Notes under the pieces: generated by a model
The model's input: only the letters and a program-made list of their open reading frames with translations
What the model was told of the DNA's origin: nothing
Databases searched by the model: none
Virus record (IMG/VR): IMGVR_UViG_3300020406_000014
Coordinates: 1 to 32,719 of that record
DNA: 32,719 nt
Reading direction: 5' to 3' (one strand)
From: a virus
Made by a program: the position numbers and the translations under genes
Shown here: piece after piece, positions 3,635 to 32,273 of the stretch
Layout of the letters: each line of letters begins with the position of its first letter
How positions within the stretch are numbered: the first letter of the stretch is position 1

Positions 3635-4500
3635 CTGGCTAAAAGAACATCGTTCAATCTGGATCCGACACTGAAAAACGAAGAATCGACAAACAAGTTA
3701 TTTCCGTTTGATGTGTCTGGATGAGTGTAAAAAGTTACATAATCTAAGCCAATTTTTTCAACCTGCTCCGTGTTTACTGAGAACTGGCTTGCATTTGAAA
3801 AAAGAAAATTATCGTCTTCTGTTTTGTATCGATAACTTCCATTAGTTTTTAGTTCAACCACCTCTAGAATATCATTGAAACTCACGGTTATGCCGCTATT
3901 GGTCCAAGGGACAGTCACCCTTCTTAATTCTCCTATTGCAAAAGTTGTGGAAGTTACTTGGTAAATAGATTGCCTTTTTTGAAACCTAACTGAATTATCT
4001 TGAGCGTAATGTCGAATGCGAAGAAAGTCACCTGTCTCAATTGACCCACTGGGCAATGCCTCTACACTTTCAACGGTAGCGGATCCATTGGATTCCAGCA
4101 CCAATTCAAAAGGATTTACATTTTCAAAATCAACATCTGCATATGTAAAACCAATGCGGACAGGTGACTGTGCGATTTGGAATTGTACATAACCGTTCGA
4201 ATTTCCTTCAATAAAATTTGTAGATGATGCCCCAGCATTATATCCATTGGATCCACTGATTTTTTCGATTCCACCATTCCCGTTTGCTTGGACCGTTCCA
4301 CCACTTGTCACAGTATCACTTCCTACGGTAATCTCTGTTAGATTTGTCCATTGTACTGCGGCAACGGTTAAATCATTTGTTGGAGGAGGAGTCTGCGCAC
4401 CTAGGGCAACAATTTCATTTTCTGCACTTGATAATCGTGTATCAAGGTTCTTCAATTGAGTACCAAGCTTTGTTCCAATCTGTGATAAAATATCAGTCAT
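3631..4500 (-). CDS. tail fibre / receptor-binding-type protein, paralogous N-terminus
   Basis: 289 residues. The first ~30 residues (MTDILSQIGTKLGTQLKNLD) match the start of the 212-residue protein encoded at 4754-5392 (MATDILGKVGEKVGTEIKAV), so both probably use the same anchoring helix. After a Pro-rich linker (QTPPPTND) the rest is Ser/Thr/Asn/Gly-rich beta sequence with no Cys, typical of phage fibre distal domains. Role inferred: host-surface contact. The start shares TGATG with the stop of the upstream lipoprotein. No enzymatic (sialidase or lyase) motif was seen. Confidence 0.75.
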   Translation of the reverse strand: MTDILSQIGTKLGTQLKNLDTRLSSAENEIVALGAQTPPPTNDLTVAAVQWTNLTEITVGSDTVTSGGTVQANGNGGIEKISGSNGYNAGASSTNFIEGNSNGYVQFQIAQSPVRIGFTYADVDFENVNPFELVLESNGSATVESVEALPSGSIETGDFLRIRHYAQDNSVRFQKRQSIYQVTSTTFAIGELRRVTVPWTNSGITVSFNDILEVVELKTNGSYRYKTEDDNFLFSNASQFSVNTEQVEKIGLDYVTFYTHPDTSNGNNLFVDSSFFSVGSRLNDVLLAR

Positions 4501-4757
4501 CAGTATTTATAATTTATTCCACCTTCAAAATAACTTTTATCTTTTTTTAAGTGTTCTGGAATTTGCAACCGTTCTACCTTCAAGTATTCTTCAAAAAAAT
4601 ATTGAAATGCATCAGAGTCATTATTCTCCTGTGCTGATCTGATTTCATTCAAATACATAATTTCCAGTTTTTTGTTTTCCTTATCTTTGATTAATAATTT
4701 TTTTTCTGTGGTGGAAATGGAACATCCTGTGAGCAAAATTATAAGTATCCATCTCAC
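4500..4757 (-). CDS. small lipoprotein inside the tail-fibre cluster
   Basis: 85 residues with a GTG start that overlaps the upstream stop (GTGA). The N-terminus MRWILIILLTGC is a short lipoprotein signal with a canonical lipobox (LTG followed by Cys12). The mature part is charged and helical (KKLLIKDKENKKLEIMYL, then EYLKVERLQIPEHLKKDK). It is predicted to be exported and lipid-anchored in the host envelope, so it is not a virion fibre. Its place between two fibre genes is notable: some phages place a receptor-blocking lipoprotein beside the receptor-binding gene (T5 llp is the classic case). An o-spanin role is an alternative. Function is not proven. Confidence 0.75.
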   Translation of the reverse strand: MRWILIILLTGCSISTTEKKLLIKDKENKKLEIMYLNEIRSAQENNDSDAFQYFFEEYLKVERLQIPEHLKKDKSYFEGGINYKY

Positions 4758-5392
4758 GATAGTGCTGTAGTAAATGCTGATTCAAAAGATGCGTAATTTC
4801 CTAGCGATACATTATTAATCAATATATCTGATCCACTGCCTACTTTTAGCTTACCTGCCTGTACAATTCCTACTTTAAGATTTGCATCTGCGGTTCCTTT
4901 TTTTAAGTGAAACAAATCATTCCCATCGTCCCATATAAACTGTGCCTTATCTAGAACCGCACCAGCATTATCCTTTCCACGATTGATTTGAATACCCCCA
5001 GTCTGTGCAGTTTCGGATCCATCACTTGCGGTCAGATTAACCTCAATGATATTATCCTCCACCTCAACAGTCTGCGTGTTTAGAACCGTGCGAGTTCCTC
5101 CCACAGTTAGGTTGCCAGTAATCGACAAATTCCCAGATGCATCAAATGAAGGTGCGCCAGATAGTAAACTATATGGAATTGTTCCTGCACTTAATGTTCC
5201 GACAGTAGTTAAATTTGTTGATCCAGCCCAAGTGTTCACTGCAATGTTCTGGACATTGCCAAGACCAACTTGGCTTTTATTTACGCTATGTGGATTATCT
5301 CCACGATTCGCATGATTTGAAATAGTAGTATTTACTGCCTTAATCTCAGTACCTACTTTTTCCCCCACTTTGCCTAATATATCTGTTGCCAT
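4754..5392 (-). CDS. tail fibre protein
   Basis: 212 residues. The N-terminal helix (MATDILGKVGEKVGTEIKAV) is shared with the 289-residue fibre downstream. It is followed by an NPHSVNKSQVGLGNVQN motif, a segment found repeatedly in phage tail fibres, and then by beta-helix-like repeats rich in Gly/Thr/Asn (SGNLSITGNLTVGGT). The C-terminal third (FIWDDGNDLFHLKKGTAD) resembles other fibre shafts. It is likely a trimeric fibre or a fibre segment. It lies in a row of short fibre genes, which suggests the fibre is assembled from several polypeptides. Confidence 0.8.
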   Translation of the reverse strand: MATDILGKVGEKVGTEIKAVNTTISNHANRGDNPHSVNKSQVGLGNVQNIAVNTWAGSTNLTTVGTLSAGTIPYSLLSGAPSFDASGNLSITGNLTVGGTRTVLNTQTVEVEDNIIEVNLTASDGSETAQTGGIQINRGKDNAGAVLDKAQFIWDDGNDLFHLKKGTADANLKVGIVQAGKLKVGSGSDILINNVSLGNYASFESAFTTALS

Positions 5393-16575: not shown

Positions 16576-16829
16576 TTTTTGTACTCCTCAAGCCTAGCTT
16601 TTAATCCACTGATTGCATCGACTCTGCCTGCTGCATGAGCAAATTGAGTTACATTGTTTTTTGGATCCGAAACATCATTTACTGCATCTAGAAGAATATT
16701 ATCTAGCACTGCATCAAGTGCCTGCCATAACTTGGCTCCTTCTCCAACTTCCTTGAAAATTCTTGTGATATCCTCGCCACTCATGGGATCTGGATACTTG
16801 ACGAGTTTGGCTTTTTTTTGCCAGAACAT
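16572..16829 (-). CDS. small hypothetical protein next to portal
   Basis: 85 residues, start sharing TGATG with the portal stop. Predicted helical: DITRIFKEVGEGAKLWQALDAV, LLDAVNDVSDPKNNV, and a final FAHAAGRVDAISGLKARLEEY. Proteins of similar size and helix content that end in a G-R-x-x-A-x-x-x-L-x-x-x-L-E pattern commonly follow portal genes in podoviruses; function unknown. Confidence 0.7.
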   Translation of the reverse strand: MFWQKKAKLVKYPDPMSGEDITRIFKEVGEGAKLWQALDAVLDNILLDAVNDVSDPKNNVTQFAHAAGRVDAISGLKARLEEYKK

Positions 16830-18958
16830 CAGTATCCTCCCTGCCCCATAACTGGCTTGACTCCTACTCTTCCAATCTGTGCGTTTTCTTTTTGCTGCAT
16901 ACCAAATTGTAAATACTTAATTCGATTATCTGCCAATTGTTTGACAAGTGGATTCTCATTCATTTTCCGCTGGATCTCCTGTGATTGCTGAACTATTTGC
17001 TGGGCAGTTTGAGAACGAAGTTCAAAATTTACACCTTCTTTTGCCACTGGCTCAATTTCGTTTGCAATCTTAACCCAGCTACTTTGTTCATCATCAATTT
17101 CTTTCTGGGCAGCAGTTTGTTTATCCATCACCACTTGCTTTGCCAGCATTGGATCAATTGATTCAGCAATAATTTCAAGCAATTTATTTCGGTCCAACGC
17201 ACCTGTCACATCAAACTGGGTAAGTTTCGTAACCGCATCCAATTTCTTTTCCATGAACTCTGGATTCAAAGTATCCACTGAAAACCTAAGAGATAAATCA
17301 AATCTACCCTCAATGTCTTCTTGCTGCATTGCGATTTCTTCCACTGGTCCACCAGTAATACGGGCAACGAATGCTGGATCCAAATACTGCTGACACAAAG
17401 ACAATGCCTGTGACAATGCTTCCCTCCATGAATCCAACCATCTATTCACCATGCACTGCTGGTAAAGCTGACGGGCTTCTGGCTTCTCTGGATTTCCAAA
17501 GTATCTCTCTGCGTCCGCTATGGCTGCGGATTCTGCCTCCATTGAACTCTGCGACAATGGTGGAGGTTGCAACCAGCCCAAATCGTCTGGTCTGGTAATG
17601 GTAATCTGCGAAGCAGGTTGAACCAGTAAATTTAATCCACCCCGTCTGGCATTTACCAGCAGTGGCGGTATGACTCCAATTTGACTTGCATCATTTCGTA
17701 AATCTCTCTGGACCTTTGCCTCGTATTGATTTGTTGCAACCAGTTCAGAAATTCCTCTGGAGTCAAATATGGACCTAGATAATCTTTCTCTGGTAAAGAG
17801 AACAAAAGGCATTTGGTTGTGACCGTATTCTAGGATTTCATGCTTCCCGTAAAGTTCTGGAACATGGGATGAAAATGCTGTGCAGTAGATTGCTGGCACA
17901 TTTGTATCCTCATCATATTGCCTCTGATAAGCATAAAAAATTTCGTACAGGTCATTGAAGTCACCTTCTACTCCCTTGCCCAGAGTATGAACCCCAAGTT
18001 GAATAGGATTGCGATAATCATATTCCGCAACTCCAGACTGTCCCTCAGATTTCTCCAGAATTGCCTCAACAAATTCTTCACTAAATCCTTCGGTCATTAT
18101 CTTGTCCCGTAGCTCGGTTTCCGATAACCATTCCCTACGCATTATCACCCTAGCTCGGTCCAGCTCGGTGCAATTTGCATCCACAAAAACATCCTCGTAC
18201 AGTCTGTGGGCAACAAATCTCGGACGGTTTTCATGAATAGATGGAGTGGGTAATTTAGTTTGCCCAGTTTCTCTAAATTCTTGGAGTCCCTTTTTTAACA
18301 CCTTTTCCTTAACACCAACAAAAACCTGTGCCATCAGTGCTAAAGATTGTTCCTCCATATCTGGATCCTGTAAGACCGTCATGATTTGTTGGACAGCAGC
18401 TTCATCTCCTCCCTGTTGAGTGACCATTTGCACAACATCCTGCATAGAAAATGTTTTCATCCGCATGATGGTTTCCTGCTGCCAATAAACACCAAGTACA
18501 CCAATCGCTGGGGATCCAGAAAACATTTCCTGTGCTAGAATTTCAACTTCCCTGCGTAGTTCTGGCAACATTCTTTGCTCTAAAAAATAAGCAAGGCAAT
18601 CCCTCCAGTAGGCTGCCTTTTTCTGATCGCTTGTTTCGATACCAGAAACAGACATATTTGATCGGAAAAAAGCTTCCGAAACCATATGTACATGTTCATT
18701 GATTAAGCGATCAGCAAGTCGCATATGGATGTCTGATGCACCCTCCCAAGGTATTGGTCTGTGACCGATAAATTCCTCATGCTTTCTCCCATCGTCCGAC
18801 TGCCCTTCCCAGCGAGCATATCTTACATCATCATAATCATCTCTCCTGCGAAGATTTCTGCCAGCGTCTTCAAGAATATCTGTTAGCTCAGACTGCAACT
18901 TTGATACATCTGGCTCATTGCTGGCTTTATTTTTATCTGAATCGTATTCGTACCTCAT
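16829..18958 (-). CDS. portal protein
   Basis: 709 residues, the usual size for large podoviral portals. The N-terminal ~100 residues (DVRYARWEGQSDDGRKH, PIPWEGASDIHMRLADRLINEH) match the pattern of portal proteins in which W-x-G-x-S-D and P-W-x-G-A-S-D recur. A wing region with many helices follows, then a long stem/crown region, ending in an extended Gln-rich helix (AQQIVQQSQEIQRKMNENPL). It forms the dodecameric ring through which DNA is packaged by the terminase. It lies upstream of the scaffold and capsid genes in the morphogenesis block. The start overlaps the preceding stop (ATGA). Confidence 0.88.
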   Translation of the reverse strand: MRYEYDSDKNKASNEPDVSKLQSELTDILEDAGRNLRRRDDYDDVRYARWEGQSDDGRKHEEFIGHRPIPWEGASDIHMRLADRLINEHVHMVSEAFFRSNMSVSGIETSDQKKAAYWRDCLAYFLEQRMLPELRREVEILAQEMFSGSPAIGVLGVYWQQETIMRMKTFSMQDVVQMVTQQGGDEAAVQQIMTVLQDPDMEEQSLALMAQVFVGVKEKVLKKGLQEFRETGQTKLPTPSIHENRPRFVAHRLYEDVFVDANCTELDRARVIMRREWLSETELRDKIMTEGFSEEFVEAILEKSEGQSGVAEYDYRNPIQLGVHTLGKGVEGDFNDLYEIFYAYQRQYDEDTNVPAIYCTAFSSHVPELYGKHEILEYGHNQMPFVLFTRERLSRSIFDSRGISELVATNQYEAKVQRDLRNDASQIGVIPPLLVNARRGGLNLLVQPASQITITRPDDLGWLQPPPLSQSSMEAESAAIADAERYFGNPEKPEARQLYQQCMVNRWLDSWREALSQALSLCQQYLDPAFVARITGGPVEEIAMQQEDIEGRFDLSLRFSVDTLNPEFMEKKLDAVTKLTQFDVTGALDRNKLLEIIAESIDPMLAKQVVMDKQTAAQKEIDDEQSSWVKIANEIEPVAKEGVNFELRSQTAQQIVQQSQEIQRKMNENPLVKQLADNRIKYLQFGMQQKENAQIGRVGVKPVMGQGGY

Positions 18959-23120: not shown

Positions 23121-24749
23121 TCAATAAGTGCCTCCAGAGTCCAGAATTGCACTGTTTGGGTCTAAAAAAGTTGGTCCAGACAGGCAAAAATAACGCAAAG
23201 TATCAATAAAATCTTTTGAACTTCCATGCCTACCGTCATTTCCCGTCCATGTTGCGAGCGAAAATCTGAGGTTTTTACAATTTTCGTGAACATATAATCT
23301 GGGGCAATTGATTGCTGTCATCTCTTCTTCTTCATTCCAGTCGAGCAAATCATTGATCAAAGTAACACCCTCTTCAATTCTGGCTCCGATACTAGGCTCA
23401 AAAAACATACCCAGATCTGCCATCTGATCTATGAGGGTAGTCATGCCAGATTTTGTTGGTGTAGGGGACGCTCCAAATCGACTGTCCATGATACGCAGGA
23501 AAATTTCTTCCCCATTTTCAGCCTCTTCTATCGTTTCTTTGTATCTGACCAGAGAAAAACCAAGTGGATCCTGTGCTGGTCCTTTATCACCATCTATCTT
23601 TTTTCCACTCACTGCCCACTCTCCCAGAAAACCAAATCCCTTGACAGGTTCCACTTGACTGGGAAATTCACGGTAAACATAGCATTTTCCGTCCTTGGCA
23701 ACACGGACCCAGATCATTACCCAGTTTTTTCCGTGAGATGGATCACAAATCATATAATTTGTCCCTTCTTCTGGAATCTGATCATCAGATACTAGGTGAT
23801 CCTGCGAAAAACGGGGAAACTGACCAGACTGGACGCGCGTGGGCAGCCCAAACGCTCGCATAAGAATTTTTGTCTTCGGATCTGCCTGCAAAGTGCGTTT
23901 TAGCTGCTTATAATCATTAAATTTATTCCATTCGGACCAAAAATAGATAATTTTTGCATTTTCTTTCAGAGGTTGCTGGATAATTGGCACTTTTTCTTTC
24001 ACCAGCAGATCTGGATCTGCCCAGTCCCATTTTTCTGTGGTTGCACCCTGCAAATATTCTCGGACCGTAGGAGTATATCCAGTCACGGGAGTAAATGTAA
24101 TCATCATTCCTCGCCAAGGATAACCTTCTGGATAATTCGGTGCTGGTCTTTTTGCTCTCGTTACGAGCCTAAATCTAAGCGCTTGGACATGGTCCAGACC
24201 GCAGAGTTCGTCCATCCAAACTAAATCCCATTCCGAGCCTTCCAAGATGCCAGAATCCAAGTTCTGTGAATAGTTACGAAAAAAGATTCGTGATCCATTC
24301 GGTGCAACGCAGCAAGATTCCGTAAATCCACCTTTCTTGGAAAAAGTCATGTTTGTAACCTTTCCTTTCTTAGCCGCTTTCCACTCACTGGGGATAAAGT
24401 CCCAGATTAATTGCTGCTGCTGCTCAACGCTGGTGCTGGCAGTGGTATGCATACAAAGCACATTGGCTTCTGGAATGTCATTTATGCATTTCACCACTCG
24501 CTTCGAAGCCCAAGTAGACTTTCCACTCCTGTTTCCCCCAAGTACCAGAAGCTCATCGACTTGTGAAAACTCATCATCAGCCATTTTCCAATGTGGCGGC
24601 TCAATTCCATTATGAAAAGGATCCTTTGCAGACTGTAGAATTAATTCTTCTCTCTTAGCTAATAATTCACTTAGCTTTTCTGGACCCATTTCCGCAGCCT
24701 CACTTTGCGTAGGCAATCGATAATAAGGATGTGGAGTAGGCTGAATCAT
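23121..24749 (-). CDS. terL: terminase large subunit
   Basis: 542 residues from ATG 24749, which overlaps the upstream stop (ATGA). ATPase: Walker A GGNRSGKS at residues 71-78, Walker B DLVWMDE ending in Asp180/Glu181. RNase-H-like nuclease: acidic residues in ICDPSHG (Asp336), RIMDSRFG (Asp422) and KDFIDTLRY (Asp512/Asp515). This is the motor that cuts and pumps phage DNA into the procapsid through the portal. It lies before the accessory block rather than beside the portal gene, with small genes upstream, one of which may be the small subunit. Confidence 0.93.
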   Translation of the reverse strand: MIQPTPHPYYRLPTQSEAAEMGPEKLSELLAKREELILQSAKDPFHNGIEPPHWKMADDEFSQVDELLVLGGNRSGKSTWASKRVVKCINDIPEANVLCMHTTASTSVEQQQQLIWDFIPSEWKAAKKGKVTNMTFSKKGGFTESCCVAPNGSRIFFRNYSQNLDSGILEGSEWDLVWMDELCGLDHVQALRFRLVTRAKRPAPNYPEGYPWRGMMITFTPVTGYTPTVREYLQGATTEKWDWADPDLLVKEKVPIIQQPLKENAKIIYFWSEWNKFNDYKQLKRTLQADPKTKILMRAFGLPTRVQSGQFPRFSQDHLVSDDQIPEEGTNYMICDPSHGKNWVMIWVRVAKDGKCYVYREFPSQVEPVKGFGFLGEWAVSGKKIDGDKGPAQDPLGFSLVRYKETIEEAENGEEIFLRIMDSRFGASPTPTKSGMTTLIDQMADLGMFFEPSIGARIEEGVTLINDLLDWNEEEEMTAINCPRLYVHENCKNLRFSLATWTGNDGRHGSSKDFIDTLRYFCLSGPTFLDPNSAILDSGGTY

Positions 24750-24997
24750 TTTATCCTGCGTTCCAATTCCGCAAGGTAAAACCATGCATCTATGATTTCT
24801 TCTTTTATTGAATTCACCAAATCCTTAGATTTCATTCTGGCTAATCCCTTAGTGCCATCTGAATTATGCTCCAAGATACCTTTCAAGAATTTATCTCTGG
24901 CATTATATTCAAAATCCAACAAAGCCTCTTCCATAATTTCTTCGTCAGTTTTTTGGGTCAGCTTTTCATCACCCTCTAATGTCTCCCACTTACTCAT
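24746..24997 (-). CDS. small helical protein upstream of terminase
   Basis: 83 residues, overlapping both neighbours by ATGA. Acidic helical start (EGDEKLTQKTDEEIMEEALL) and a C-terminal helix KEEIIDAWFYLAELERRI. The E-E-x-x-D-A spacing is reminiscent of MazG-like nucleotide pyrophosphohydrolases, but the remaining metal ligands are not visible and it is short, so this is only a possibility. A small-terminase-like role is also possible from position. Confidence 0.65.
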   Translation of the reverse strand: MSKWETLEGDEKLTQKTDEEIMEEALLDFEYNARDKFLKGILEHNSDGTKGLARMKSKDLVNSIKEEIIDAWFYLAELERRIK

Positions 24998-25137: not shown

Positions 25138-25538
25138 TAGTATCTTCCTCTCCATCTTGGGCAGCGTCCAACCATTACCCAAATATTATTATGATCTTTG
25201 GACGGTCTGGCTTTAACCGTCATGCCCAGTAAAAAGTTTTTATTATCCTTTACCTTAATTCGTATATCATCACTCAAGATCATTCTCGGATTTCTAGGGA
25301 TCTGGGTGACCTTAAAATCTTTTGGTTCTTGTGGTGCAGGCAATGGATCCGACAATTCCTGTACCAGTAGTCTTCTCTGGATAATATTTCTAACCTCATG
25401 CTCGCCTTCTGGATGATAAACAATTCGATTGCTCACCTTTATCCAGCAGGATGTCGATGTGGTCCCGTCCTTTCTCCAGCCAACCAACATTTTTCGATCA
25501 ATGCCCAACTCTTCTGCCAATTCTTTTTCTGTCTTCAT
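25137..25538 (-). CDS. HTH-containing protein, candidate small terminase subunit
   Basis: 133 residues, ATGA overlap with upstream gene. Residues 1-30 form an HTH: KTEKELAEELGIDRKMLVGW (x-x-E-L-A-E-E-L-G-I-D-x-x-x-L-x-x-W), like Cro/MarR or terminase small-subunit domains. The central part has VSNRIVYHPEGEHEVRNIIQ and a Pro-rich linker; the C-terminal ~60 residues are a basic beta domain (MILSDDIRIKVKDNKNFLLG, MTVKARPSKDHNN). An N-terminal HTH located three genes before the large terminase fits a small subunit. A regulator is the alternative. Confidence 0.65.
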   Translation of the reverse strand: MKTEKELAEELGIDRKMLVGWRKDGTTSTSCWIKVSNRIVYHPEGEHEVRNIIQRRLLVQELSDPLPAPQEPKDFKVTQIPRNPRMILSDDIRIKVKDNKNFLLGMTVKARPSKDHNNIWVMVGRCPRWRGRY

Positions 25539-25975
25539 TTTACTTTCAAAAAATAATCAATATCGAAATAAACACATGGCTCTCGGTCCACTGACCAATT
25601 ACGCTTGTGCGGACACATCCCACCCATTTTGACGGTAAAATCCTTAACCTTACTTGTGTCCACATAGTAGTCACCGTCCGTAAATCCAATACCAAGCAAA
25701 ACTGGCAGGTGACTGGATGCGGCAAACATTCGACAGGCATTCCATTTCTTTAATCCGATCATGTATGTCGGATGAGTTCCAAACGAATGGGTGCGGCATT
25801 TCATCTCAACCAATGCAACCGTTTTACCATCCCTGTTTGCTGACCAGTCCAGTGCATATGCTGATGACAAATGCTCCATCTCGACTTTCCATGCCTTCTC
25901 CAGTCGGTGCCGAAAAAGATCCTCATTCCTTCTGGATTCATCTGTCTCCCTCGGTATAAAACTGGCAGTTTCCAT
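25535..25975 (-). CDS. PD-(D/E)XK-type nuclease
   Basis: 146 residues from ATG 25975; a TTG six codons upstream opens the frame and has no ribosome site. The core reads YALDWSANRDGKTVALVEMK followed by CRTHSFG: an acidic residue (Asp in ALDW), a turn, a strand ending in E-M-K, which is the PD-(D/E)XK arrangement D...(E)xK. A Gln/Glu-rich helix precedes and a GLKKWNACRMFAASSHLPVL helix follows, as in this fold. DNA cleavage is expected; whether it acts in recombination, packaging or host DNA attack is open. Confidence 0.72.
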   Translation of the reverse strand: METASFIPRETDESRRNEDLFRHRLEKAWKVEMEHLSSAYALDWSANRDGKTVALVEMKCRTHSFGTHPTYMIGLKKWNACRMFAASSHLPVLLGIGFTDGDYYVDTSKVKDFTVKMGGMCPHKRNWSVDREPCVYFDIDYFLKVK

Positions 25976-26002
25976 AATCGTAAAAAACTTCAAGCAGAGT
26001 GT

Positions 26003-27227: not shown

Positions 27228-27396
27228 CTTTTGAATCCCTTAAATTGATCAATTGGTTTTGAATGTCTAATAATGAGTCCTTGAGAATATCTTTCAGATT
27301 TGCATGGTTGCAGAAAGTCAGAGCTTTCTCATAAACCTTAATTTGATCCTTTAAAACCTCTTCAATCCTATCTTCCGTCTGAACTGATTTTATCAT
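27199..27396 (-). CDS. small coiled-coil protein
   Basis: 65 residues from ATG 27396, which has an excellent GGAGGAG site 5 bases upstream and starts inside the helicase-loader gene (29-nt overlap). A longer upstream extension lacks this signal. Sequence MIKSVQTEDRIEEVLKDQIK and LKDILKDSLLDIQNQLINLR is a helical, charged coiled coil. Probably partners with a neighbour; unknown function. Confidence 0.65.
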   Translation of the reverse strand: MIKSVQTEDRIEEVLKDQIKVYEKALTFCNHANLKDILKDSLLDIQNQLINLRDSKDGRQIKDYR

Positions 27397-28192
27397 TTTT
27401 CTCCTCCGTTTCATCCTGTAGCTGATCAATATTTGTCACATATGGATAACAGGATTCCCGTAATCGATTCATTAATGCTTCCCCTCTTCTTTGATCCGTA
27501 AACAACTTGATAACATCTGATCGCTTTACTTGCGTTGTAATTATCAAAGGTAAATTTCGTGCCATCCTTTGCTCCACAATTTCAAATAAACCAGCCTGCA
27601 TTGTTTCGGTCATTTTTTCCGCAAATAAATCATCAATTGCCAAAACTGGAACTGTAACCTGCTCCGTGACCCATCTCATATAAAATGAAGATCTCTTTGC
27701 ATCCGTAAGGGCGGCATGAAATTGTCCAGCTTGAAACAATTTAAACTCTGTTCCATTTTCGTAGAGATGCCTTAGAAGCAAGCACATGGTCCTTGTTTTT
27801 CCCGTTCTAGACGCTCCGAGTATGTAAACACCCTTTTTGCCAAAAGACCATTTTTGAAGGGGTATGGTATCAAAATCCTCGGATTGATAACCATAACGCC
27901 ACAGATCCCTTGCCTGCTTTGGAAGCTGATTAAAATCCGTCTCCAGATAAAAGGGTGGAATGTAATCCTCTATCTTGCCCGTAAGTGATCGATTTGTATT
28001 TTCTTTGAATTCACTTCTGGCTGCTCGCTCACAGCAGTCATCACAAACCACTATCTTTTTATTATTTCCAAAAAATGCTAAGACTGATGATTTGTAGGGA
28101 ACATCAATTCCGCACTCTCGGCACGGGACCACAATATCATCATGATCCACATCTGCCACGGTTGGAATACTATCTGCAATGTGTTGAGTCAT
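27368..28192 (-). CDS. DnaC-like helicase loader ATPase
   Basis: 274 residues, start overlapping the initiator stop (ATGA). N-terminus has a four-Cys zinc site (C24-x2-C27 in PCRECG, C50-x2-C53 in VCDDCCE). An AAA+ domain follows: Walker A GASRTGKT at residues 126-133, Walker B VLAIDDL near 183-189, sensor-like IITTQVKRSD near 217-226, and an Arg-containing NRLRE box. This is the DnaC/IstB-type layout. It should load the host replicative helicase onto the origin with the neighbouring initiator, as lambda P or DnaC does. No phage helicase is present in the window. Confidence 0.88.
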   Translation of the reverse strand: MTQHIADSIPTVADVDHDDIVVPCRECGIDVPYKSSVLAFFGNNKKIVVCDDCCERAARSEFKENTNRSLTGKIEDYIPPFYLETDFNQLPKQARDLWRYGYQSEDFDTIPLQKWSFGKKGVYILGASRTGKTRTMCLLLRHLYENGTEFKLFQAGQFHAALTDAKRSSFYMRWVTEQVTVPVLAIDDLFAEKMTETMQAGLFEIVEQRMARNLPLIITTQVKRSDVIKLFTDQRRGEALMNRLRESCYPYVTNIDQLQDETEEKNDKISSDGR

Positions 28193-28794
28193 ATATCATC
28201 CTTTGAGAATTTAGTTGCTGGTTGTTTTTGCTCCTGCCCATTTAAGTTTTCATTATCGAAAACAAATCCACTCCACCCTTTTCTGATCGCTTCATGAAAT
28301 CGATGCATCAGCTTTACTTCGCCTTCACTTTTCAGAACCTTATCGATATATCGCTGCTGGAATTTCTCAGCTGATTTGGTAATTGGTTTGCGAATTTCCC
28401 TGCGGTATTTCTTGTAAGCCAGCCATGAGCTTTCAACATCAGCAGAAAGAAAGGTAATAGTATTATTACTATTTATTTTATATACTTTATCATAATTAGA
28501 TATAATGGAAGGCGCGCGCGAGGGAGTGGTTTTTTTGACCTCACTGGCAGGGTCATGCTTGACCTCATTATTTGTGGTCAGAAAATCTTTCGTATTGACC
28601 TCATGTGTAAGGTCATGCTTGACCTCACTTTGGATATTTGGCTTGTCACTCGAAATAGAAAGATGGTGCTGGATTAGGGTGAATTTCACCGCATCATTTA
28701 AGGATAAATCATAGATAGCAGCGAAGCTGCGAATATGATCCTCCAGCACCTTTGGCAAACGAAGTGTTAATTTACATTTGCCTGTATCAGTCAT
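28189..28794 (-). CDS. replication initiator-like protein (RHH N-terminus, DnaD-like C-terminus)
   Basis: 201 residues, sharing TGATG with the SSB-like gene. N-terminal residues 7-45 (CKLTLRLPKVLEDHIRSFAA, YDLSLNDAVKFTLIQ) fit a ribbon-helix-helix DNA-binding fold. Residues 55-95 are a linker with two related units EVKHDLTHEV and EVKHDPASEV, encoded by the iteron-like DNA. The C-terminus (WLAYKKYRREIRKPIT, then HRFHEAIRKGWSGFVFD) resembles the C-terminal domain of phage/DnaD replication organisers, where W-x-x-Y-x-x-x-R and x-x-G-W-x-G-F recur. Followed directly by the helicase loader, exactly as lambda O precedes P. The initiator role is inferred from these points. Confidence 0.75.
   Translation of the reverse strand: MTDTGKCKLTLRLPKVLEDHIRSFAAIYDLSLNDAVKFTLIQHHLSISSDKPNIQSEVKHDLTHEVNTKDFLTTNNEVKHDPASEVKKTTPSRAPSIISNYDKVYKINSNNTITFLSADVESSWLAYKKYRREIRKPITKSAEKFQQRYIDKVLKSEGEVKLMHRFHEAIRKGWSGFVFDNENLNGQEQKQPATKFSKDDI
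28456..28627. other. candidate replication origin: iteron-like repeats plus AT-rich segment
   Basis: Four copies of TTGACCTCA occur at 28535, 28559, 28595 and 28619, spaced 24, 36 and 24 bases. Two are part of the exact 17-mer GGTCATGCTTGACCTCA (28551-28567 and 28611-28627, 60 bases apart), itself containing the inverted repeat GGTCA-N4-TGACC. Next to them lies an AT-rich stretch (about 28456-28508) with the perfect inverted repeat AATAGTA-TTAT-TACTATT (28456-28473). The whole lies inside the initiator gene, which matches lambda ori inside gene O. Confidence 0.6.
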
Positions 28795-29201
28795 CAGAAT
28801 GGCACATCCTCGTCCAATTCTGGATCTGTTGGATCATCTGCAACTTGCTCTGCAATTTCATCAATTGGTGCAATTGCTGGTTCAAGTTCAGCAGGATAAA
28901 ACTTTGTAACCGTATCGAATCCACCATTATTTTTGCCAACTGCAATTTTAATCTCAGATCCGATCAATTCATTAAAATCATTTGTCTTGATTTGGTCTGC
29001 ACTTGGTGCAGTCATTCCTGCTGCCTTGAAGATGTCTTGCACTCTCCAATGGGCTTTTGGAGTCAAGAACACAGAGTCATACAATGACTGTCCTGTCTCA
29101 CAGGCTAATAATAATTTAAGATAAAAGTTTCCATTTCTGGTAATATATTCTTCTCCCGTATCTTTATTTGTGGTGTAAACACCTTTAATTTGAGCTATCA
29201 T
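28794..29201 (-). CDS. single-stranded DNA-binding-like protein
   Basis: 135 residues from ATG 29201 (MIAQIKGVYTTNKDTGEEYI); a longer frame upstream would overlap the exonuclease gene. A beta-rich OB-like domain (FYLKLLLACETGQSLYDSVF, WRVQDIFKAAGM) is followed by an acidic tail that ends DPELDEDVPF. The acidic tail with final D-x-x-P-F is the classic interaction end of bacterial and phage SSBs. Located with the ERF protein and exonuclease, consistent with replication/recombination. May belong to a DUF669-like SSB group rather than bacterial SSB. Confidence 0.75.
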   Translation of the reverse strand: MIAQIKGVYTTNKDTGEEYITRNGNFYLKLLLACETGQSLYDSVFLTPKAHWRVQDIFKAAGMTAPSADQIKTNDFNELIGSEIKIAVGKNNGGFDTVTKFYPAELEPAIAPIDEIAEQVADDPTDPELDEDVPF

Positions 29202-29212
29202 GATATTTTTAG

Positions 29213-29896
29213 TTATAGGTTTTTCTCTGCCAGCCAGTGACCCCAGATGTTGCCACAGACTTCCCAAAATCGTTCAATTACTTTTACTGGTTCACCAAAG
29301 TCCAATTCTATGCTGCCATTAAAATGTAAATAGCCTACTGCGATAGGATTTGAATATCTTGGATCCAGTCCTGCCTTCGCAATAATGTCATCATAATGTG
29401 ACTCTCTGGCAGCCTCTATTTTCTCCTCAATTTTTACAGGATCCTTGAGATTGCCAACCTTTACATTTTCTGGCTTGAACTCTGGTGCCAATGCCATGAT
29501 TTCAGCATCAGATTTTGGTCCAGTTTCAATATCAATAATTGTGAAATTATCACAGATTTCGAATGCATTATTTATTGCATTGAAAACAGATTTTGTCTGA
29601 ATTAAATCATTTTCTAAATAGGATTCCTGCTCTTCCCGTGGAAGCTGGTAAAAGAATTTTCCGTTTCCGTTCTTACCATCACTGCCAATTGCTTTGGCAA
29701 ATGCATCCAGAGATATCCTATCACCAAAAACTCCAGCACTATAGAAATCCATAGTATCAAAGAAAACATCTGCCCAAAATTTACCTCGCTGTGGGACCAA
29801 ATAAGATTTACCTTTTGCACCATTAAAAATGGTGCTGCGTAGCATGTAGGGTAAATCAAATCCCTTGAAATTATGACCAACTACCTTGTGGCTCAT
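29213..29896 (-). CDS. DEDDy 3'-5' exonuclease with circularly permuted motif order
   Basis: 227 residues from ATG 29896 (ATGA overlap with the ERF gene); counting from an in-frame ATG six codons earlier gives 233. Numbered on the 233 form, Exo II (VGHNFKGFDLP, Asp20) comes first, Exo III (YLEND, Tyr99/Asp103) second and Exo I (IIDIETG, Asp128/Glu130) last. The usual order is I-II-III. The rest follows the family with the halves swapped: after Exo I come VKVGNLKDPVKIEEKIEAA, LDPRYSNPIAVGYLHF and ERFWEVC, which normally lead into Exo II. The family is the PolB-related phage exonuclease group (PF10108-like). All four acidic residues and the Tyr are kept, so activity is plausible. Confidence 0.85.
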   Translation of the reverse strand: MSHKVVGHNFKGFDLPYMLRSTIFNGAKGKSYLVPQRGKFWADVFFDTMDFYSAGVFGDRISLDAFAKAIGSDGKNGNGKFFYQLPREEQESYLENDLIQTKSVFNAINNAFEICDNFTIIDIETGPKSDAEIMALAPEFKPENVKVGNLKDPVKIEEKIEAARESHYDDIIAKAGLDPRYSNPIAVGYLHFNGSIELDFGEPVKVIERFWEVCGNIWGHWLAEKNL

Positions 29897-30549
29897 GCTG
29901 CTTTGCTCCTCCATTCTTCAACTTTTTCCATGACTTCATCATCGCTTAGTGCAAGAAATCGCTTTAACTCTTTTTCCACGGTCCTGTGTGGAAAAAACTT
30001 AGTAGCCTCTGCCCAGTCTGCGATTGATAGACTTGTTAATCTTTCATCAACTGCATCGACTAAATCTGGATCTCTTATTGGCTGCTTTTTCGGTCCATGT
30101 TTTTTCGGTGGAATTTTCTTTTCTGGCGGCTTTTCTTTGCTGCCAACTCCGTCCGTATCTTCATCTTCTGGAAATATATTCATCATTCCAAGTAGGGCAT
30201 ATCTTTTGCCATAGGTCAGTGCCGCACCGTAATCCTGTATAGGATTGCTTTTAAAAGTTACAGGCACTTGAGCCTGCTCAATTAGATGCTGTCCACTCTT
30301 ATGGATCAATACGGTCTTAATTGTTATGCAATCATTTTCGATGCCGCCAACCACATGCTGGAATAATCCAAGATCATGTTCAGCCAGCACTGGTTTTATG
30401 ACCGCAAGGATCTGGTCCAATGAGCTATATCTGTACCCGTAACCTTGCGTGTCCTTCTTAGGATTGACAAGATCCGCTTGAGCCAATATGAGACTCGCGA
30501 ATATATGATTCGGCACAGGATGTGCCATTTGATTTTCTGTTTCATTCAT
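29893..30549 (-). CDS. erf: ERF-family single-strand annealing protein
   Basis: 218 residues, both ends overlapped by ATGA. N-terminal domain shows the ERF pattern: IFASLILAQADLVNPKKDTQ, YRYSSLDQILAVIKPVLAEH, GLFQHVV, then DYGAALTYGKRYALLGMMNI and FPEDEDTDG. The G-A-x-x-T-Y-x-x-R-Y-A-L-x-x-x-x-x-I...D-D-D-G signature is that of P22 Erf-type recombinases. A Lys/Pro-rich linker (KPPEKKIPPKKHGPKKQP) and a C-terminal helical domain follow. It promotes annealing of complementary strands, for example for genome circularisation or repair, with the neighbouring SSB, exonuclease and resolvase. Confidence 0.9.
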   Translation of the reverse strand: MNETENQMAHPVPNHIFASLILAQADLVNPKKDTQGYGYRYSSLDQILAVIKPVLAEHDLGLFQHVVGGIENDCITIKTVLIHKSGQHLIEQAQVPVTFKSNPIQDYGAALTYGKRYALLGMMNIFPEDEDTDGVGSKEKPPEKKIPPKKHGPKKQPIRDPDLVDAVDERLTSLSIADWAEATKFFPHRTVEKELKRFLALSDDEVMEKVEEWRSKAA

Positions 30550-30875
30550 TTTTCTATAGTTGTTAGTAGTTCAAGCAGATCCTTAAATCTGCATGTAAAA
30601 AGTTCTTCAGAGTGATTTTTCTTGTGGACCACGCATGGTGGTTTTCCTGCTTTCTTTGCATCAGAAATCGATTGCGTCATGGCAGCATATAAATTTAGTT
30701 TTTCCACATGTTTACATTCCAATGAAAACGGAAAATCTGGTGCGATAACATCAGCATCACCATTGGCACCGCAAAACTGCTGTCCCCGTCTTGCAGTCCA
30801 GCCAGCGTCATTTAAGATATTACTTATACTTCTCTCAAATCTAGCACCTTTTTGCTTACTGTTTATCTTTCCCAT
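30546..30875 (-). CDS. Holliday-junction-resolvase-like PD-(D/E)XK nuclease
   Basis: 109 residues from ATG 30875 (a GTG three codons upstream opens the same frame). Motifs: SKQKGARFERSISNIL (K-G-x-x-F-E-R, the first Glu/helix), GDADVIAPDFPFSLECKHVE (Asp, then E-C-K), matching the PD-(D/E)XK core E...D...E-x-K of Hjc/resolvase-type enzymes. A CVVHKKNHSEELFTCRF segment completes the sheet. It would cut branched DNA in recombination. ATGA overlap with the ERF gene supports a joint role. Confidence 0.82.
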   Translation of the reverse strand: MGKINSKQKGARFERSISNILNDAGWTARRGQQFCGANGDADVIAPDFPFSLECKHVEKLNLYAAMTQSISDAKKAGKPPCVVHKKNHSEELFTCRFKDLLELLTTIEK

Positions 30876-31041
30876 TTTCACCACTGGTTAATTCATCTAC
30901 GATATCCAAAAATTCGTGAACAGATCCCTGCCAAGGTCCATAAGTCTGGATCTCCAAAGTATTATCGCTTTTTAAAGTGATTTTTAAATTGTTAACCTTG
31001 ATTGTCTCAGAGGTTGACGCTGGTATTCCAGAGGAATCCAC
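30856..31041 (-). CDS. small hypothetical protein
   Basis: 61 residues with a GTG start (the frame continues upstream to the integrase stop without an ATG, so the start is uncertain). Sequence IKVNNLKITLKSDNTLEIQT, then WQGSVHEFLDIVDELTSGEN: a short beta-hairpin followed by one helix. Overlaps the resolvase gene. No ribosome site is clear. Possibly a small Cro/excisionase-type partner, but there is no HTH evidence. Confidence 0.5.
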   Translation of the reverse strand: MDSSGIPASTSETIKVNNLKITLKSDNTLEIQTYGPWQGSVHEFLDIVDELTSGENGKDKQ

Positions 31042-31083: not shown

Positions 31084-32121
31084 TTACACCTCTAGTTCAT
31101 TTCTGTGGCTGGTGAGATCACTGTAATATCTCTCTGCCACTTGGACTGAATTTCTCAGCTGCTTCGCTGCATGGTATATGCCATGCTCGGTTGCCAACCT
31201 AGCTCCAAGTATTTTACGAAGACGATGGCAGGCTTTATTTTCCTTGATGCCTACCTCCTTTTTCAAAAACTTGATGAATCGTCTGTGAAGCCTTTCTCCA
31301 CCTTCCACGATACGGGCTGAATTTTTTTGTCCAGATTGCAATTTGAAGTGATTAAATACCTGCTCGGAAACAGGCACCTTCTCAACTATATTGATTCCCT
31401 TTAATTTTGTGCGTTTAGTACTGAAGGGTAACAGTAAAAAATGCTGTCCATTAAAGGTTGTAAAATTTTCATGTTTGACTTGGTAAATTTCTGATTTCCT
31501 TAAACCGCAACCAAATGCCAACAAATATATATTGTAAAAAATTGGATGTTGATCTTTAGCATTATTAAAAAATTTAATAATGTGATCAACCTCTGCATCG
31601 GATGTAGAAAAAGGCTGGGACACTGTGGTTTCCGCAACAAAAGTTACAAAGTTACCGAAAGGCTTTGTATCCCAGCCCATCTTCTTGAACAACAAAATAT
31701 TCTTCCTTCCAAATATAGATCTAACCTGCCGCAACTTATGCGGTAAATTGAAGAGATCCTGCCAGCGTTCTGGCAAAGTTCTGCCTAGTTCATCAGTTAC
31801 AAGTAGACGAGTTGTAGGCTCATCCAAAGGAATATTATCCATCTTAAAATAATGCTTTGCATTACTGACAACTTTCTTTCGAGTATCAATATGCCCAGAT
31901 CCCTTTTCGAGGTAAGTGCTAAGCATCCGCTTGAGAGTGACGATACCATCAATCTCATTAATGTCGATTTTGACGAGGGTAAATACATCTTCAAGTTTAA
32001 TCTCAGATGCAGTGATATTTAGACGGGTAGTCTTCTTGTGACCCTTATACTGATATTTAACTGCAATATATTTACCCCTATCGACTATCGTGATAGGGAT
32101 GTCCACTTGCGGTAAAGTCAT
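31084..32121 (-). CDS. int: tyrosine site-specific integrase
   Basis: 345 residues from ATG 32121. The frame is open another 47 codons through the tRNA-derived attachment core, but those codons spell the tRNA sequence and are unlikely to be the true start. Catalytic residues of the tyrosine recombinase family: Arg208 (FGCGLRKSE), His299-x2-Arg302 (CHRLRKILGARLATEHG) and Tyr332/333 (AERYYSDL). The second His/Trp position is less clear (KQLRNS). An N-terminal arm-binding and a core-binding domain (~60-160) precede. It inserts phage DNA at the tRNA-Cys site next to it. It lacks a strong ribosome site. Confidence 0.9.
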   Translation of the reverse strand: MTLPQVDIPITIVDRGKYIAVKYQYKGHKKTTRLNITASEIKLEDVFTLVKIDINEIDGIVTLKRMLSTYLEKGSGHIDTRKKVVSNAKHYFKMDNIPLDEPTTRLLVTDELGRTLPERWQDLFNLPHKLRQVRSIFGRKNILLFKKMGWDTKPFGNFVTFVAETTVSQPFSTSDAEVDHIIKFFNNAKDQHPIFYNIYLLAFGCGLRKSEIYQVKHENFTTFNGQHFLLLPFSTKRTKLKGINIVEKVPVSEQVFNHFKLQSGQKNSARIVEGGERLHRRFIKFLKKEVGIKENKACHRLRKILGARLATEHGIYHAAKQLRNSVQVAERYYSDLTSHRNELEV

Positions 32122-32188
32122 AATAAAAAAACCGCATTCGGCAATACTTAAATTTAACCAATACTCTTGCTTATCCTCTGACAAAGAA

Positions 32189-32238
32189 TGGAGGCGCGGG
32201 TGAGAATCGAACTCACGAATAGAGGATTTGCAGTCTCC
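32189..32238 (-). other. 3' tRNA-Cys fragment, phage attachment core (att)
   Basis: Minus strand: anticodon loop CTGCAAA (GCA, Cys), stem TCCTC, variable loop TATTC, T-arm GTGAG-TTCGATT-CTCAC, acceptor CCGCGCC, then T and CCA (32189-32191). The 5' half is absent: there is no GGCGCGG or D-arm upstream and the 5' anticodon stem already mismatches. A 3' tRNA fragment beside an integrase gene is the standard phage attachment core, likely attP rather than a rebuilt tRNA gene. Confidence 0.85.
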
Positions 32239-32273
32239 TGCTCGCTGGTAGGAATTGGTCATTTCGTAATTGA

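Follow-up and report, generated by a model that had tools for sequence, protein, structure and literature searches.

The DEDD exonucleases (proofreading domains, DnaQ, RNases D and T, TREX) are among the most studied of all nucleases. To our knowledge, natural circular permutations are uncommon in catalytic domains with a strict metal-site geometry. The closest described relatives of the protein presented here are the phage PolB-like exonucleases of Pfam family PF10108 (DNA_pol_B_exo2) and PHROGs 403 and 25228, such as gene NVP1135O_53 of Vibrio phage 1.135.O and the IMG/VR sequences L124, L125 and L129. These relatives are homologous to it in both halves and share its DEDDy residues and secondary-structure elements, the nearest PF10108-type ones being ~35–49% identical to the permuted group over the best half-length segments; whereas they carry Exo I, Exo II and Exo III in that order in one chain, the permuted group has Exo II, Exo III and Exo I. 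Family B DNA polymerases contain an exonuclease domain (PF03104; e.g. PDB 5mdn, 7b0f) that has the same fold and the same motif set and is matched by the canonical relatives in both profile (E 7e-8) and structure (E 2e-6, TM 0.60), but the permuted exonuclease stands alone, without a polymerase domain, and is rotated. Natural circular permutation also occurs in other phage enzymes, for example the DNA adenine methylases of jumbo phages, where a rearrangement of the same kind, with catalytic motifs kept, affects a different fold (PMC7824862). A survey of the RNase H-like superfamily from 2014 lists PF10108, and no word in it begins with 'permut' (PMC3985635). Among the open-access papers searched, none was found to describe a DEDD or DnaQ-fold exonuclease in permuted form, and the passages combining 'circular permutation' with DEDD, DnaQ, RNase H or exonuclease concerned other things. 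The ordinary-order family is well known; the permuted order is a new feature as far as that literature goes, with priority unproven. The gene described below very probably encodes a naturally circularly permuted, active DnaQ-fold DEDDy 3′–5′ exonuclease of single origin, kept in a phage recombination cassette.

The window, the whole stretch of 32,719 nucleotides analysed (IMG/VR record IMGVR_UViG_3300020406_000014), carries a 227-aa ORF at 29896–29213 between erf and an SSB-like gene. The preliminary description had reported a continuous ORF at 29213–29896; the frame is exact, and we add that it lies on the minus strand, the plus strand across the same interval being full of stops. Exo II (GHNFKGFD, residues 7–14, with D14) comes first, followed by Exo III (YLEND, residues 93–97, with Y93 and D97) and Exo I (DIET, residues 122–125, with D122 and E124), each present once, just as had been claimed. 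The first half of the predicted protein (residues 1–112; 29561..29896, minus strand) contains Exo II and Exo III and corresponds to the C-terminal half of ordinary relatives, with positions 95–210 of the canonical profile mapping to it; the second half (residues 113–227; 29213..29560, minus strand) contains Exo I, strands 1–3 and helix A and corresponds to their N-terminal half, with profile positions 5–94 mapping to 29258–29548. The gene's start overlaps erf (29893–30549) in an ATGA, so that the coupling noted earlier is present, and its end lies 8 bases short of the SSB-like gene. An alternative in-frame ATG lies six codons upstream, at 29914; since the close relative L010 lacks it, the ATG of the ATGA seems the likelier start. 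The motif set is that of the PolB-like DEDDy group, namely D-x-E in Exo I, D in Exo II and Y-x3-D in Exo III. Pfam recognizes only the first half of the protein (PF10108, residues 4–105 against model positions 54–170, E 0.006, 16.7 bits against a cut-off of 24), as does PHROG 403, weakly. All 23 canonical relatives match PF10108 at E<=0.01; the cut-off is passed by three of the 11 permuted records, and by these only through the Exo II/III half. Because Exo II and Exo III precede Exo I in each of the 11 proteins, the window protein is, by sequence, to be filed as a permuted descendant of the PF10108 group and not as a standard member.

The order is not peculiar to this gene. Ten more distinct sequences (L001=L002, L003, L004, L005, L010, L011, L162, L267, L268 and L269), each a single open frame with the same swapped order, were found on independent IMG/VR contigs, five permuted contigs being ~43 kb long and the rest shorter; the preliminary description had named viromes as a place to look for such homologues. 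Pairwise identity among all 11 ranges from 40 to 96%. Since L162 was recovered with an ordinary-order query, the permuted group is not defined by order. All permuted members are on uncultured contigs, and no permuted copy was found in 50,697 phage records, in plasmids or in one-per-species genomes. Over all gathered loci, the distinct ORFs with both halves comprised 152 canonical and 10 permuted ones plus that of the window, and in prokaryote genome contigs 39 of 39 were canonical, counts that depend on the queries used and are no census. Three different contigs of ~43 kb (L267, L268 and L269) come from a single metagenome (3300046168), which suggests that the lineage is locally rich there.

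If the gene is a rotated version of an ordinary one, then undoing the rotation should restore similarity along the whole length. When the protein was rotated residue by residue and each version was compared with a profile built from 25 ordinary relatives, the score climbed smoothly from 78.0 bits in the native order to 145.6 bits when cut at residue 111, and the other ten permuted proteins went from 69–87 bits native to 137–162 bits rotated. The unpermuted controls needed no rotation: with leave-one-out profiles, all 25 ordinary proteins reached their highest score no more than 10 residues away from the ends that they have in nature. Conversely, ordinary proteins scored against a permuted profile peaked when cut just before VGxN (L124 going from 84.7 to 173.2 bits). 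The apparent failure of L162 to respond was caused by an untrimmed extra frame ahead of its start codon; with that upstream frame trimmed off, it went from 77.7 to 158.9 bits. Both halves are hence homologous to the ordinary halves, swapped and present in one copy each. The near doubling of the score on rearrangement, from 78 to 146 bits, and the course of the sweep support the original suggestion that the halves were exchanged at the loop that separates Exo I from Exo II. The new join, from the Exo III Asp to the Exo I Asp, has a length of 25 or 27 aa in every one of the 11 permuted proteins (25 residues in the window protein, Asp97 to Asp122; 29531..29608, minus strand), and the former C-terminal tail and N-terminal head together measure 17–61 aa (median 24) in 22 canonical proteins, 21–29 aa in the nearest relatives L124–L129, and 21 aa in L124 itself. 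The opened loop has 10–19 residues in ordinary proteins and 20–26, split between the two new ends, in permuted ones. Such lengths are what a duplication with slight overlap would leave as its expected residue. The ordinary C-terminus, past the Exo III helix, would have been joined to the N-terminus, which lies ahead of the strand bearing Exo I; the new chain ends would have been created in the loop that connects helix A to the strand leading into Exo II.

Structure prediction agrees with the rotation. The AlphaFold2 model of the window protein reached a pLDDT of 94.8 and a pTM of 0.88 (92.0 and 0.86 for the ordinary control L124); its input alignment combined eight permuted proteins with ordinary relatives split into halves, every half on a row of its own, an arrangement that assists the folding of each half. 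The predicted secondary-structure elements are E H E H H H H followed by E H H E E H in the permuted model, and E H H E E H followed by E H E H H H H in the canonical control, that is, the same elements in rotated order. Foldseek, which is an order-dependent method, gave no match to the PDB at E<=0.001 for the permuted model and 107 matches at that threshold for L124, led by family B polymerases (E 2e-6, TM ~0.60); against a viral library, the permuted model matched annotated 3′–5′ exonucleases over about half its length. When PDB profiles were searched with the alignment of permuted proteins, only chance matches came up (TEAD factors, E 0.3). Because the confident single-domain model has its elements rotated but complete, the catalytic acids likely meet in one site: the permuted chain would fold to the ordinary domain, with D14, D97, D122 and E124 together with Y93 forming one two-metal site. 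It could also be that the linker is too short for the chain to close on itself, and that Exo I of one chain combines with Exo II and Exo III of another in a domain-swapped dimer. A join of 25–27 aa is short, which can favour swapping, and its conserved length is compatible with either case. However, AlphaFold2 confidently predicts a compact single chain (pTM 0.88), and a linker equal in length to the former tail and head combined should impose no strain; we therefore regard such a dimer as improbable.

The permuted proteins form one clade in separate trees of the Exo II/III half (support 99/98) and of the Exo I half (99/97), built with the eight permuted proteins then known and with distant outgroups left out. 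A split of the permuted group in a first Exo I-half tree was due to the very long branch of the outgroup L109, and disappeared without outgroups. Since one clade is found with either half, the permutation appears, on the sequences, to be one old event. An assembly of the gene by fusion of halves from two different exonuclease genes, rather than by rotation of one, has about as little probability in our view as the swapped dimer. In the Exo I-half tree the permuted clade has a weakly supported grouping with L142/L145 (74/73), and its sister is left unsettled by the Exo II/III-half tree, which would leave room for two parents; but by profile score both halves have the same canonical subfamily, L124–L129, as the nearest ordinary group, and each half forms one clade with the same members. 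Rotation of a single gene is therefore preferred. As the sister relation of the permuted clade lacks resolution, we can only infer the route, the simplest being from one ordinary gene, probably by tandem duplication followed by loss of the outer ends. No tandem-duplicate or two-copy intermediate was found among the ORFs of all gathered loci.

Inert relatives usually lose their catalytic residues. In the permuted proteins, 43 residues are invariant in all 11 sequences, among them D14, Y93, D97, D122 and E124, so that the full D-E-D-D-Y set recognized at the outset is kept down to 40% identity. Wherever estimable (Nei–Gojobori), dN/dS is 0.04–0.12 in both halves, which, several synonymous distances being near saturation, stands for strong constraint and not for a precise number. 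The arrangement is thus inherited, in 11 distinct sequences of one clade with low dN/dS. The invariance of the five catalytic residues makes it very unlikely, and somewhat more so than either of the foregoing alternatives, that the fold has been kept without nuclease activity, as a structural or regulatory partner of Erf or SSB, even if the Maelstrom family, of the same fold, has lost or switched its active site (PMC2628886). The canonical-order profile matches each of the 11 records in two swapped pieces, profile positions ~95–212 first and then 4–101; a further piece in the record of L001 is a chance match (E 4.7), and these records yielded neither a second copy nor an Exo I gene of its own, which effectively excludes the upstream Exo I that the preliminary description had allowed for. 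That the contig is metagenomic would be the one ground for suspecting an assembly artefact or a gene broken in this contig alone, a suspicion with next to no probability and refuted by the same order in ten other distinct sequences, which come from independent contigs of up to about 43 kb and have diverged DNA and near-saturated synonymous sites. With the swapped order in independent contigs, the catalytic residues invariant and dN/dS low, an assembly fault and a relic can both be dismissed, and the reading first proposed from the sequence, that a PolB-related DEDDy exonuclease has been circularly permuted in nature, is supported by rotation sweep, predicted structure, half-trees and independent contigs alike.

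The permuted gene is part of a conserved cassette on the minus strand. From upstream, the window has a tyrosine integrase at the cassette's head (31084..32262; PF00589 E 6e-6, PHROG 1 E 1e-7), a PDDEXK or Holliday-junction resolvase-like endonuclease (30546..30884; PF24608 E 5e-11, Hjc E 0.0018, PHROG 244 E 1e-23), the single-strand annealing protein gene erf (29893..30549; PF04404 E 1e-21, PHROG 2324 E 4e-29), the permuted exonuclease, an SSB-like gene (28794..29204), a replication initiation O-like gene (28189..28794; PHROG 678 E 0.005) and a DnaC-like helicase loader gene (27368..28192; PHROG 50 E 2e-18), the support from Pfam and PHROG being firm for erf, resolvase and loader and weak for the O-like protein. 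The product of 28794..29204 had no Pfam match, and its position and acidic ...DEDVPF C-terminal tip suggest that it is SSB-like. This order is common to the window and eight permuted contigs, except that one contig begins inside erf and that L263 has no detected O-like match; the integrase is syntenic in the permuted loci that extend that far, and erf identities across the compared permuted contigs fall to 27%. Judged by its motifs, the window protein is most likely an active 3′–5′ exonuclease of this recombination cassette. Its role would most likely be to trim 3′-ends for Erf-mediated annealing, which is the more direct reading; less likely is proofreading in trans, which, since no family A or B polymerase was found in the seven permuted-exonuclease records searched for these families, could serve only the host polymerase. 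As ordinary-order relatives in other phages also adjoin ERF, SSB or resolvase genes, the job of the exonuclease is probably older than the permutation. In this reading, purifying selection has kept the permuted gene in the resolvase–erf–exonuclease–ssb recombination and replication cassette of this phage lineage.

One could speculate that this is the first known natural circular permutation in the DEDD (DnaQ-like) fold, fixed a single time in one phage lineage, and, at the same time, that the new chain ends, synthesized directly after Erf from a cassette with coupled translation, alter docking to Erf or SSB, or entry of the 3′-end, giving the permutation a function, but we consider the two together doubtful. 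In any case, the permuted clade and its ordinary relatives at ~35–49% identity constitute a natural experiment, with matched pairs for testing what the order of elements contributes to folding, to the docking of partners and to fidelity. Permuted proteins are missed, or found only by halves, in standard profile searches and in fold searches that depend on order, and permuted nucleases are therefore probably under-annotated in viromes.

Some further features of the window may be mentioned. The terminase large subunit (23121–24785, minus strand) has a single relative among 50,697 phage records, in Phage C75C1 (31%), so that the lineage is almost without cultured kin; the integrase has no relative in the same records. 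The terminase of the phage represented by L129 is a distant relative (35%) of that of the window, and in L129 the ordinary-order exonuclease relative (3977–5019) is the immediate upstream neighbour of a related resolvase gene, an arrangement that possibly pictures the cassette before permutation. A 709-aa protein (16829–18958, minus strand) has a sub-threshold match to the DnaG helicase-binding domain (17.4 against 25.9 bits), possibly by chance in a long helical protein. A second PDDEXK-type nuclease (25535–25993, minus strand; PF24579 E 5e-24) lies near the terminase and is kept in several permuted-exonuclease contigs. Finally, the start of the integrase frame (32190–32262, minus strand) crosses a stretch resembling a tRNA 3′-half, GACTGCAAATCC...GTTCGATTCTCACCCGCGCCTCCA, which looks like tRNA-Cys, and integrase relatives carry the same tRNA-like stretch (GDCKSSIREFDSHPRLH in translation); this stretch is likely the attP core, and the integrase therefore probably starts further in.
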